From positions 258,381 to 322,380 of the forward strand of contig NZ_FNNR01000003.1 in the NCBI RefSeq assembly GCF_900106835.1: a DNA stretch of 64,000 nucleotides. Direction: 5' to 3'. The notes beneath the pieces are model-generated. The model saw only the letters and a list, made by a program, of their open reading frames with translations. It was not told the origin of the DNA and ran no database searches. A program made the position numbers and the translations under genes. Below are positions 45,825 to 49,793 of the stretch, piece after piece. This DNA is from Arthrobacter sp. cf158 (GTDB lineage Bacteria; Actinomycetota; Actinomycetes; Actinomycetales; Micrococcaceae). The number at the start of each line of letters is the position of its first letter. Position 1 is the stretch's first letter.

Positions 45825-45923
45825 GCTAACCAACGTAGTCGTTCCGGCGTATGTGTTCTAGTGTGAAAGAGTCCGGAAAATCGGACTTTTGGGGGCTACG
45901 AAGACGTACGGGGAGCTGTGACC

Positions 45924-47330
45924 ATGGCGTTGAAGAAAGTTTTGGCAATCGTATTGGCAGGCGGAGAGGGCAACCGACTCATGCCGCTGACGGCGGACCG
46001 GGCCAAGCCCGCGGTTCCGTTTGCCGGCGGCTACCGCCTGATTGACTTTGCACTATCCAATCTCGTTAATTCGGGATATTTGAAAATTGTTGTTCTGACG
46101 CAGTACAAATCGCACAGCCTTGACCGCCACATCTCGGAAACCTGGCGCATGTCCACGCAGTTGGGCCGTTATGTGGCATCTGTTCCCGCGCAGCAGCGTG
46201 TGGGCAAGAGCTGGTTCCTTGGCAGCGCCAATGCCATTTATCAATCGCTGAACCTCATCCACGACGACGCCCCGGACATCGTGGTAGTGGTTGGCGCTGA
46301 CCACGTGTACCGGATGGACTTCTCCCAGATGGTGGAGCAGCACATTGCAAGTGGGGCGAAGGCTACGGTCGCGGCCGTCCGCCAGCCACTGAACATGGCC
46401 AACCAATTCGGCGTGATCGAAGTAGACCAAAACGATCCCCAGAAGATTGCAGCCTTTGTGGAGAAGCCTGCCAGCACCCCCGGGCTGGCCGCGGACCCCA
46501 CGCAGTTCCTTGCGTCAATGGGCAACTATGTCTTTAACGCAGACGCCTTGGTTGAAGCTTTGCACGTGGATGCGGAACGCCTCGACACCAAGCACGACAT
46601 GGGTGGCGACATCATTCCGTATTTCGTGGATCAGGGCGAAGCCGGCGTGTACGACTTCACACTCAACGACATCCCCGGTGCTACAGACCGCGACCGGACC
46701 TACTGGCGCGACGTTGGCACCATCGATTCGTTCTACGACGCGCACATGGATCTCATTTCCCCCGTGCCGGTCTTTAACCTGTACAACTCCGAGTGGCCCA
46801 TCTACACCCGCCAGAGCATTTCTCCGCCCGCAAAGTTTGTCCGCGGTGAGAACAACACGGTGGGCACGGCGCTGGATTCCATCGTGGCGAGTGGTGTGGT
46901 TATTTCCGGAGGGATCGTGGAGGGTTCCGTCCTGTCCAACGATGCTTACGTGGCAGCCGGCAGCCGTGTACAGGACTCCGTATTGATGGACAAAGTCCGG
47001 GTCGGCGAAGGCGCCGTCATCAAGCGGGCCATCCTGGACAAGAACGTCAAGGTTCCGGCAGGCGCCGCCATCGGCCTGGACCCTGCCTTGGACAAAGCCC
47101 GCGGTTACAAGGTGACCGAGTCCGGCATCACTGTCCTGGCGAAGGGCCAAGTGGTTCCTGAGCCGGGGGAGGCAGAGTTGGCCTTGTCCGCGCAATACCG
47201 CCGGGGTCTTCCCGAGGCCGTTAAAGCTGCAACGCATGACGACCCCGACATTCGCGACTCTGCTGAAAAGGTAGCTGCCGGGATCCAGTCACGCGTGGCA
47301 GATGCTGCAACCCAGAGTGCGACGCACTAA
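45924..47330 (+). CDS. glgC: Glucose-1-phosphate adenylyltransferase GlgC
   Basis: GlgC makes ADP-glucose, the sugar donor for glycogen and the product used by the divergent glgA. The 468-residue protein has [61 protein letters not shown], and a C-terminal left-handed beta-helix ([20 protein letters not shown]). ATG 45924 was chosen because GGGAG sits at proper distance; an in-frame GTG at 45918 adds two residues. Allosteric control by glycolytic metabolites is usual in the family but cannot be confirmed here. Confidence 0.95.
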
Positions 47331-47403
47331 GCGGCAGCCACTCCCCTGACGCGAACAGAACCCGAGGCAGGCCACGCGGTCCCAAGGCTGTAAAATCAGG
47401 TCA

Positions 47404-48855
47404 ATGAGCTCCACCGATCTGACGCCTGAAGAGATCCAGGCCTGCCTCAAGGTTCTGACCACGATTCACGTCTATGACGAAGAGCACCCGGACTATGTTG
47501 CCGTCCGGCGTGCTACCGGCAAGATGTTCAAGGCCGTCAAACGACACCGCCGCGTCACCAAGCGTGACTCCATTGCCGAAGCTGACCGTGCTGTGATTGC
47601 CCTGACGGCCACCGCGGCGCCGGACAGGATTGACGACGAAACCCGCGGCAACAAGCTGGCACCCTCCACTACCGGCGAGATCGCGGGACACCTTATCCGT
47701 TCCCGTCCCTGCTACATCTGCAAGAAGCACTACACGCAGGTGGATGCTTTCTACCACCAGCTCTGCCCTGAATGCGCGGCTTTCAGCCACAGTAAGCGGG
47801 ATGCGCGTACCGACCTCACGGGCCGCAGGGCGTTGTTGACCGGTGGACGCGCCAAGATTGGCATGTACATCGCGTTGCGCCTGCTTCGCGACGGTGCGCA
47901 CACCACCATCACTACTCGCTTTCCCAAGGACGCGGCCCGTCGCTTCGCTGCCATGGAAGACAGCGCAGACTGGCTGCACCGCCTGCGCATCGTTGGCATC
48001 GATCTCCGTGATCCGGCGCAGGTCATGGCCCTCACGGACTCGTTGGATGAAGCCGGCCCCCTGGACATCATCATCAACAATGCGGCCCAGACCGTGCGAC
48101 GCTCCGGGAATGCCTACAAGCCGTTGGTGGACGCAGAGGACGAGCCCTTGCCGGCCGCCTTGGAAGCCGCCAACGGTGGACCTGAGCTGGTGACATTCGG
48201 CCATGCGCATGACAAGCACCCACTGGCACTGGCGAGCAGCGTCACCGAACACCCGGTCCTGGCCGGCGATGCCATCACCTCGCTGGCGTTGTCCACCGGA
48301 TCGGCGTCACTGGAAAGGATCGAGTCAGGGACAGCCATCGATGCCGGTGGCTTGGTTCCGGACCTCGCCTCGATCAACAGCTGGACCCAGGTGGTGGATG
48401 AGGTGGACCCCCTGGAAATGCTCGAAGTCCAGTTGTGCAACGTCACGGCACCCTTCCTGCTGGTGAGCCGGCTCCGTGGTGCCATGAAGCGGTCCTCTGC
48501 GCACCGGAAATACATCGTCAACGTCTCCGCCATGGAGGGGCAGTTCTCCCGGGCATACAAGGGCCCTGGACACCCCCACACCAACATGGCCAAGGCAGCC
48601 CTCAACATGATGACGCGCACCAGCGCCCAGGAGATGCTGGATTCCGATGGGATTCTCATGACTGCGGTGGACACCGGTTGGATCACCGACGAGCGTCCCC
48701 ATTACACCAAGGTCAGGCTCATGGAAGAAGGGTTCCACGCTCCGTTGGACCTGGTGGACGGCGCTGCCCGCGTTTACGACCCCATTGTGATGGGTGAAAA
48801 CGGCGAAGACCAATACGGCGTCTTCCTGAAGGATTACAAGCCGTCACCCTGGTAG
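47404..48855 (+). CDS. SDR-family protein with N-terminal zinc-ribbon-like motif, atypical active site
   Basis: A 483-residue protein. Residues 1-100 are helical and charged. Residues 103-124 hold two CxxC pairs (Cys103/Cys106, Cys121/Cys124; RPCYICKKHYTQVD and then LCPEC), a likely zinc-binding ribbon. Residues ~138-460 form a Rossmann SDR: RALLTGGRAKIGMYIALRLL, IIINNAAQTVRR, and YIVNVSAMEG with Ser375. The Lys of YxxxK appears to be Lys397 in HTNMAKAAL, but the Tyr position is Thr393; Tyr385 lies 12 residues before the Lys. Activity is therefore unclear. The ATG at 47404 follows glgC by 73 bp. The function is unknown. Confidence 0.75.
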   Translation: MSSTDLTPEEIQACLKVLTTIHVYDEEHPDYVAVRRATGKMFKAVKRHRRVTKRDSIAEADRAVIALTATAAPDRIDDETRGNKLAPSTTGEIAGHLIRSRPCYICKKHYTQVDAFYHQLCPECAAFSHSKRDARTDLTGRRALLTGGRAKIGMYIALRLLRDGAHTTITTRFPKDAARRFAAMEDSADWLHRLRIVGIDLRDPAQVMALTDSLDEAGPLDIIINNAAQTVRRSGNAYKPLVDAEDEPLPAALEAANGGPELVTFGHAHDKHPLALASSVTEHPVLAGDAITSLALSTGSASLERIESGTAIDAGGLVPDLASINSWTQVVDEVDPLEMLEVQLCNVTAPFLLVSRLRGAMKRSSAHRKYIVNVSAMEGQFSRAYKGPGHPHTNMAKAALNMMTRTSAQEMLDSDGILMTAVDTGWITDERPHYTKVRLMEEGFHAPLDLVDGAARVYDPIVMGENGEDQYGVFLKDYKPSPW

Positions 48856-48893
48856 AAAGACCCCGAGTTTCAGTACTGATGTTTGAGTACGAA

Positions 48894-48926
48894 TAAGGCC
48901 CTTAAGAGCGACTCTTGAGGGCCTTA
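48894..48926. terminator. Bidirectional terminator between the SDR gene and the transglutaminase gene
   Basis: A 15-bp stem (48894-48908 with 48912-48926, one T-G pair) with a 3-nt loop sits between convergent stops at 48855 and 48942. A-rich sequence follows at 48933. Confidence 0.82.
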
Positions 48927-48941
48927 TCCGTACAAAAAATC

Positions 48942-49793
48942 CTAAGCGAGGCGGGTGATCTCCACGGAAACGGAGAGCCCCGACCCGCCGCCACCGGACA
49001 GGATGCCCTTCAGGGGAGGAACGTCACGATAATCCCGTCCCCTGGCAACGGTGACGTGGTAGTCGCCGGCCGGCTTGTGGTTGGTGGGGTCCCAACTGCG
49101 CCACTCACCGTCCCACCATTCCAGCCACGCGTGGGACTGTCCTGCAACGGTTTCCCCGATGTCCGCCGACGACCGCGGGTGGATGTAGCCGGAAACGTAG
49201 CGGGCAGGTATGCCGCTGCATCGCAAGGCCCCAATGGCAAGGTGCGCCAAGTCCTGACAGACACCTTGCCGCTGCGACCACGCCTGCTCCGCATTGGTGG
49301 TTACACCAGTGGTGCCCTTCATATAGGTCATTTCGCCGGCCATCCACTCAAAGACCGCCAGTGCAGCCTCGTGTGGATTCTTGCCCTGCACAATACCGGG
49401 AACAATCCCCAGGACTTCCTCGCCGGGACCGCTGAGCCTGGATTGTGGTAGCCAATCGCTGAACTCGTCCTGGACCTTATCCGAGGCAATGACATCCCAG
49501 CCCACGATGTCGTCGTCAGTGGCAACGCGCTCGGTGCGATGCACTTCCACGGTGGCCGTGGCGAGGACCTCAAGGCTCTCATGGGGCATCTGCATATCAA
49601 ACGCCGTGACGCGCGTTCCCCAGTAGTCGCGGTACGTGCTGACCGATGCCTGGTTGGGCGAAACCTTCAGCGAGGATTCCAGGACCACTTGCTGCCCATC
49701 GGTCAGCGGAGTCATCCGGGCCTCGTTGTAGGACAAGGTCACGCGGCGGTTGTACTTGTAGGCCGTCTTATGGACGATGCTCAGCCGGGTCAT
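48942..49793 (-). CDS. Transglutaminase-like protease/ligase of the ATP-grasp/alpha-E trio
   Basis: A 283-residue transglutaminase-like protein with an N-terminal beta domain (SIVHKTAYKYNRRVTLSYNE) and a papain-like core. The triad is readable: Cys179 in RQGVCQDLAH, His221 in GQSHAWLEWWDG, Asp235 in WRSWDPTN. Such proteins often accompany circularly permuted ATP-grasp and alpha-E proteins in a peptide-modification or amide-forming system proposed from comparative genomics. The substrate is unknown. The ATG at 49793 overlaps the alpha-E gene stop by 4 bases. Confidence 0.88.
   Translation of the reverse strand: MTRLSIVHKTAYKYNRRVTLSYNEARMTPLTDGQQVVLESSLKVSPNQASVSTYRDYWGTRVTAFDMQMPHESLEVLATATVEVHRTERVATDDDIVGWDVIASDKVQDEFSDWLPQSRLSGPGEEVLGIVPGIVQGKNPHEAALAVFEWMAGEMTYMKGTTGVTTNAEQAWSQRQGVCQDLAHLAIGALRCSGIPARYVSGYIHPRSSADIGETVAGQSHAWLEWWDGEWRSWDPTNHKPAGDYHVTVARGRDYRDVPPLKGILSGGGGSGLSVSVEITRLA

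Follow-up and report, generated by a model that had tools for sequence, protein, structure and literature searches.

The protein encoded at positions 47404–48855 (+ strand) of the window (the whole stretch of 64,000 nucleotides that was analysed), hereafter called P0001, is a member of the SDR superfamily by fold and homology, and the SDR catalytic tetrad N-S-Y-K reads N346-A376-T393-K397 in its family. With a probability of roughly 0.4, P0001 is proposed to be an active NADP(H)-dependent reductase with a rewired active site, which perhaps reduces C=C bonds. When the readings with an active protein are added together, activity of some kind is rather probable for the family, reduction of C=C bonds specifically less so.

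The SDRs, among the largest of enzyme families, are automatically annotated as dehydrogenases. The P0001 family passes as ordinary in Pfam, and public databases list it as ‘SDR family NAD(P)-dependent oxidoreductase’, yet half of the catalytic tetrad is gone in every sequence read. If the family is active, the SDR scaffold would have a wider range in the absence of Ser and Tyr; if it is inactive, a conserved NADPH-binding regulator would be concealed among enzymes.

The gene and its reading frame

The ORF runs from an ATG to a stop codon and its translation is 483 amino acids long. Full-length homologues exist, and the dN/dS ratio against seven relatives was 0.020–0.038 (dS 0.79–1.44, with the synonymous sites partly saturated). 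Both results back the forward frame, and a wrong frame or an artefact was therefore rejected. The antisense frame over the gene is interrupted by stops, yet contains an ORF of 283 amino acids (47401–48252). The gene is under strong purifying selection, as would be expected of an enzyme or of a regulator under strict constraint; decay is unlikely since the low dN/dS is accompanied by invariant E378, K386, H390, N394 and D423. Pfam gave only adh_short (59.2 bits, cut-off 26.6) and adh_short_C2 above the cut-offs, in two separated stretches, because an insertion of about 95 residues interrupts the SDR core.

An ORF of the glgC nucleotidyl transferase type (45918–47330; the name glgC is our own assignment) is located upstream and is separated by 73 bases (47331–47403) from the P0001 gene. 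Downstream, a transglutaminase-type gene (48942–49793) is found on the opposite strand. The interval 47200–49000 of the window was searched for sites bearing on co-transcription with glgC, and nothing resembling a promoter or a terminator was found.

Conservation of the active-site residues

The family alignment consisted of 122 distinct sequences, 113 of the close type with Tyr at position 385 and nine without it; three near-identical rows have identical last 300 residues. For comparison, 20 family members were aligned with MAFFT to 42 ordinary SDRs from viral contigs. These outgroup SDRs were drawn from 80 loci, 52 of which were checked, and YxxxK was present by pattern in the expected stretch in 50 of the 52. 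A profile-profile alignment of the family with three SDRs from the genome of the window served as a second, different method.

The earlier note on this DNA, made from the sequence, had pointed to four Cys residues (103, 106, 121 and 124), a Thr at the Tyr position (T393) and a retained Lys (K397). All of these were confirmed, each in 122/122 family sequences, which leads us to reject chance or sequencing error as the source of the residue changes; the numbering of these residues and of Y385 was verified by script on P0001. The column of T393, which is Thr also in the 20 family rows of the MAFFT alignment, holds Tyr in 41 of the 42 ordinary SDRs, and the retained Lys is present in 40 of the 42. 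The Ser of the tetrad has been lost as well: the family has A376 throughout (122/122), whereas 39 of the 42 outgroup SDRs have Ser. The profile-profile alignment also placed T393 on the Tyr and A376 on the Ser. The claim that P0001 is not a standard dehydrogenase is thus strengthened. The family departs from a standard classical SDR at three points, namely the Tyr of YxxxK, the catalytic Ser and TGxxxGxG. The loss of the Ser had been missed in the earlier note, as had K151, the N-terminal helical region and the insertion.

Ala376 is part of the motif NVSAMEG (residues 373–379; 48520–48540, + strand), in which Glu378 follows two residues on and is invariant (122/122); S375, adjoining the Ser position, is replaced by Thr in one protein only (L144). 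The retained tetrad Asn, N346 (48439–48441, +), is found in 122/122 family sequences and in 36 of the 42 outgroup SDRs. The stretch KGPGHPHTNMAK (residues 386–397; 48559–48594, +) contains K386, H390, T393 at the Tyr position, N394 and the retained K397, all five of which occur in 122/122 sequences; it lies in model blocks with a pLDDT of 62 (381–390) and 91 (391–400). H392 is somewhat less conserved (115/122), the remaining seven rows (L110–L116, presumed Streptomyces) having Asn and reading HPNTNAAK where others read HPHTNMAK. The PG motif of SDRs is replaced by DTGW (residues 423–426; 48670–48681, +), with D423, G425 and W426 in 122/122 and T424 in 121/122 sequences, the column of T424 being Pro in 40 of the 42 outgroup SDRs. 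At 94 positions, among them those of E378, K386, H390, N394, D423 and W426, the same residue is found in no fewer than 121 of the 122 members. The sequence positions of E378, K386 and H390 suggest that these three residues line the pocket.

The nucleotide-binding loop of P0001 is TGGRAKIG (residues 146–153; 47839–47862, +), or TGGRxKIG across the family, with K151 in place of the second Gly of TGxxxGxG. R149 and K151 are both invariant (122/122), and 37 of the 42 outgroup SDRs have Gly at the position of K151. Arg172, after the second strand (TTRFP; 47917–47919, +), is likely to contact the 2'-phosphate of NADP(H) and is found in 122/122 family sequences, as compared with 14 of the 42 outgroup SDRs. 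A preference for NADP conferred by an Arg after the second strand is a known SDR rule, and the invariance of R149, K151 and R172 is as expected for NADP(H) binding. In the NNAG-type motif of SDRs, N225, N226 and A227 are each found in 122/122 sequences, and the fourth letter in P0001 is Ala, not Gly.

The earlier note had named beforehand, among the results that would speak against its claim, a Tyr, for example Tyr385, in the catalytic position. P0001 would then be a normal SDR, and Y385 is indeed present in 113 of the 122 sequences, 12 residues before K397. Nevertheless, the residue is Asn, Ser, Phe, Met, Leu or Arg in the other nine (eight distant rows and the second-copy protein L144), and the column is a gap in 38 of the 42 outgroup SDRs. 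Tyr385 was rejected as the catalytic Tyr since it is missing from these nine sequences while N346, E378, K386, H390, T393, N394 and K397 hold in all 122, and a normal SDR of this kind is extremely improbable.

An ordinary carbonyl reductase or dehydrogenase, with E378, H390, K386 or Thr393 acting as proton donor in place of the Tyr, is an unlikely reading. Each of E378, H390 and K386 is invariant, and by eye E378 lies two residues after the Ser position, just as a Tyr does in DECR1. The Ser which would hold the carbonyl is also lost, however, and the literature searched, with thin coverage of subscription papers, yielded no precedent for such an SDR residue set or proton relay and nothing evidently concerned with the P0001 family.

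Domain organization and predicted structure

The AF2 model used had a pLDDT of 85.4 and a pTM of 0.85, and superseded an earlier model with a pLDDT of 71.0 which was poor at residues 377–405. Its input alignment included the 42 ordinary SDRs, so that the core leans on them. Confidence is low (pLDDT < 50) at residues 76–78, 80–88 and 270–281, and is 62 in the block 381–390 which contains the loop with K386 and H390. In a fold search with the model, the 50 matches listed were SDR-type chains, with Z scores of 22.2–23.7. In the SDR core, T393 and K397 are placed on one helix (391–415).

According to DSSP of the model, P0001 begins with a helical region (residues 8–65; 47425–47598, +; block pLDDT 88–95 for 11–70), which is not universal in the family, since it is missing from a divergent member of 368 amino acids (L163). 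It is followed by the site of four Cys (residues 93–133; 47680–47802, +; block pLDDT 90–94), with strands at 93–102 and 109–114 and a helix at 122–133. The first CxxC forms a knuckle between the two strands and the second is at the start of the helix. The CxxC-CxxC pattern described in the earlier note is thus present in the whole family, whereas the fold name ‘ribbon’ was less apt than treble-clef-like. The site, with its four invariant Cys, probably binds zinc. Pfam gave no known zinc-finger domain on P0001, and the rows of the fold search cover mainly residues 129–479, the Cys4 part being barely sampled.

The insertion in the SDR core comprises residues ~235–329 (48106–48390, +), the model being weak at 270–281. 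At every third position sampled between 234 and 327, at most four of the 42 outgroup rows were filled, and N325 and W327 within the insertion are found in 122/122 family sequences. Some SDR-fold enzymes use tightly held NAD(P) transiently, and a lyase, epimerase or isomerase of that type could be envisaged here, as the nucleotide loop is unusual (Lys for Gly at 151, 122/122) and the insertion with its invariant N325 and W327 could close the site. Against this, the sequence and fold matches are classical SDRs and the extended-SDR Pfam models Epimerase and GDP_Man_Dehyd were below their cut-offs, making such an enzyme highly unlikely.

Distribution of the family

When GTDB species genomes were scanned with P0001, 594 stretches matched and the best 80 of these were kept; matches of 98–99% identity in Paenarthrobacter records were among them. 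The gene belongs to the core set of the genus of the window, in which 36 of 37 genomes match, the single miss being a genome that is 68% complete. Among the nearest relatives 38/59 genomes match, in the rest of the order 2/22, and in a sample drawn evenly from the phylum Actinomycetota, where the distribution is patchy, 37/396 (E ≤ 1e-30). The genome of the window has one copy, the next matches being weak (E 2.9e-6 or worse). Distant members with 42–47% identity are present in five genomes of other actinobacterial groups, and a member on a Deinococcus plasmid shows 47% identity at a query coverage of 79%. Two copies of 85–88% identity (L024 and L027) are labelled Sporosarcina and Acidobacteria; used as sampling centres, they yield what appears to be a sample of the phylum of the window, and the labels look wrong. 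A family tree was made from 33 hand-picked rows of the 122, and has long branches and unreliable deep joins.

Divergent members are also found in two IMG/VR contigs. In one (L163:3956–5062, IMGVR_UViG_2724679205_000004), the member of 368 amino acids has a ParB/N6-N4 DNA methylase gene upstream and a phage integrase gene downstream, and is possibly a phage-carried copy. In the other (L162:1–1296, IMGVR_UViG_2687453458_000001), the member lies at the edge of the viral contig; a leucine-rich-repeat-like protein comes next and an integrase-like ORF farther on, both identified by eye. A motif scan of viral contigs gave five matches, which were the two known members and three chance occurrences, and tblastn with P0001 or L163 gave no match in 50,697 phage records.

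Foldseek with the model matched four proteins of a giant-virus library (BFVD A0A3G5A6W1, A0A3G5A578, A0A1V0SKJ3 and A0A650DBT1; sources Homavirus, Harvfovirus, Klosneuvirus and one unnamed), with 26–30% identity over 404–446 columns, E 1.3e-21 or better, TMq 0.58–0.61 and rmsd 7.2–9.8. The next row had an E value of 2.9e-8. These model-based matches hint at a eukaryotic branch of the P0001 family.

Gene neighbourhoods

The neighbours of 96 family loci were clustered, the family gene itself being kept by the ORF picking in 86 and lost in 10, and the neighbour types were checked by Pfam on one or two cluster members each (one each for the acyl-CoA dehydrogenase and CoA-transferase III types). 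None of the neighbours is common to the whole family among the 96 loci, so no pathway was drawn from them, and recurrence stays within related groups. The glgC-type neighbour occurs in 18 loci, all Arthrobacter-like by identity, a DUF3516 helicase-type neighbour in 10 Microbacteriaceae-type loci and a DUF2784-type neighbour in seven Nocardiaceae-type loci.

Within about 4 kb of the family gene, a CoA-transferase III-type neighbour is found in six Nocardiaceae-type loci and an acyl-CoA dehydrogenase-type neighbour in five Nocardia loci and in L150 (examples of these two types near Nocardiaceae copies are L047:698–1843 and L030:6636–8021, with their cluster mates). On a Tsukamurella plasmid, genes annotated as acyl-CoA dehydrogenase and AMP-binding protein lie 3–6 kb from the family gene. 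Since acyl-CoA genes abound in these bacteria, such neighbours are a weak and possible hint of an acyl-CoA substrate.

Proposed function

In standard SDRs, Ser and Tyr polarise and protonate the carbonyl. The loss of both in the P0001 family speaks against this textbook mechanism, with Ala376 and Thr393 as their replacements beside the retained Asn346 and Lys397. By analogy with the 2,4-dienoyl-CoA reductases, the proposed reductase would transfer hydride from NADPH to a C=C bond that is conjugated, or to a similar bond. The carbonyl of the substrate itself would bear the charge, so that a phenol would not be required at the Tyr position, and the proton could come from water or from the invariant E378, K386 or H390. 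The most likely occupant of the Cys4 site is a structural zinc, which would keep the N-terminal module packed against the SDR core.

Several points weigh against a DECR-like reaction. The likeness consists of the two lost residues, the general fold and one His (H392), which is Asn in 7/122 sequences, and the group to which the window belongs has glgC and a transglutaminase gene as neighbours and no acyl-CoA genes. The lost tetrad residues would also be expected of a non-catalytic NADPH binder. Such a protein could be a redox sensor or a scaffold that binds NADP(H) and, through the Cys4 module, a partner or nucleic acid. The loss of both Ser and Tyr in 122/122 sequences, the additional N-terminal helical and Cys4 modules and the lack of a family-wide neighbour naming a pathway all agree with this alternative, which nonetheless appears somewhat unlikely: the invariant Lys397 and Asn346 and the dense polar set around the motif exceed the needs of cofactor binding, and Pfam finds no binding domain in P0001 besides the adh_short-type Rossmann models. 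The earlier note had suggested either a binding or regulatory protein or a different chemistry. The latter is favoured, as the rest of the presumed pocket has been held invariant and has not decayed, and the former fits less well.

If the proposed reductase is taken together with the distribution, the family may be an uncharacterised one which occurs in Actinomycetota and on a Deinococcus plasmid, as well as in two IMG/VR contigs and, apparently, giant viruses. It would use an Asn-Ala-Thr-Lys tetrad and the invariant Glu378/Lys386/His390 as a proton relay for NADPH chemistry, with a zinc-bearing treble-clef module fused in front; this complete description is doubtful and is put forward tentatively.

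Comparison with known SDR enzymes

Classical SDRs such as FabG and tropinone reductase share with P0001 the fold, the NNA motif and the Asn and Lys of the tetrad, tropinone reductase-I (1ae1_B) matching the core with a Z score of 23.7 and an rmsd of 2.2 over 229 aligned residues. P0001 differs from them in having other residues in place of the Ser and the Tyr, of the second Gly in TGxxxGxG and of the Pro in PG, and in its added N-terminal modules and insertion. The only PHROG match, both for P0001 (110 bits) and for L163 (134.6 bits), was phrog_3142, a ‘FabG-like’ auxiliary metabolic gene.

The 2,4-dienoyl-CoA reductases were among many known structures that matched: the peroxisomal enzyme DECR2 ranked 7th and 16th in two PDB searches and the mitochondrial DECR1 20th by Z score, 1.2 below the top, and ordinary carbonyl-reducing SDRs match P0001 as well or better. 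DECR1 (PDB 1w6u; 1w6u_A, Z 22.5, rmsd 2.9, 250 aligned residues) has Ser at the Tyr position and the retained Lys. It differs from P0001 in having, as judged by eye, Thr at the Ser position with a Tyr two residues on, where P0001 has Ala376 and Glu378. This Tyr is presumably Tyr199, which we take to be catalytic.

DECR2 (PDB 4fc6/4fc7) is the nearest precedent and resembles P0001 in its SDR fold, in the Ala at the Ser position (NITA) and in the retained Lys. In the human stretch NITA...VHAGSAK, placed by eye, the Tyr position is Ala, as compared with Thr in the P0001 family, and a His stands five residues before the Lys, like H392 of P0001. The PDB chain of DECR2 has 277 residues and, unlike P0001, leaves no room for the Cys4 module, a helical N-terminus or the long insertion. 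In a study of human DECR2 (PMC12691678), which assayed the growth of an E. coli fadH deletion strain on linoleate, mutation of K182 or of acidic residues abolished complementation and mutation of N117 nearly did so; the acidic residues named there are D86, D137, D186 and D268. These mutants indicate that SDRs of the DECR2 kind are active without Ser and Tyr (PMC12691678). The DECR trait of absent Ser and Tyr with retained Asn and Lys is found in the P0001 family.
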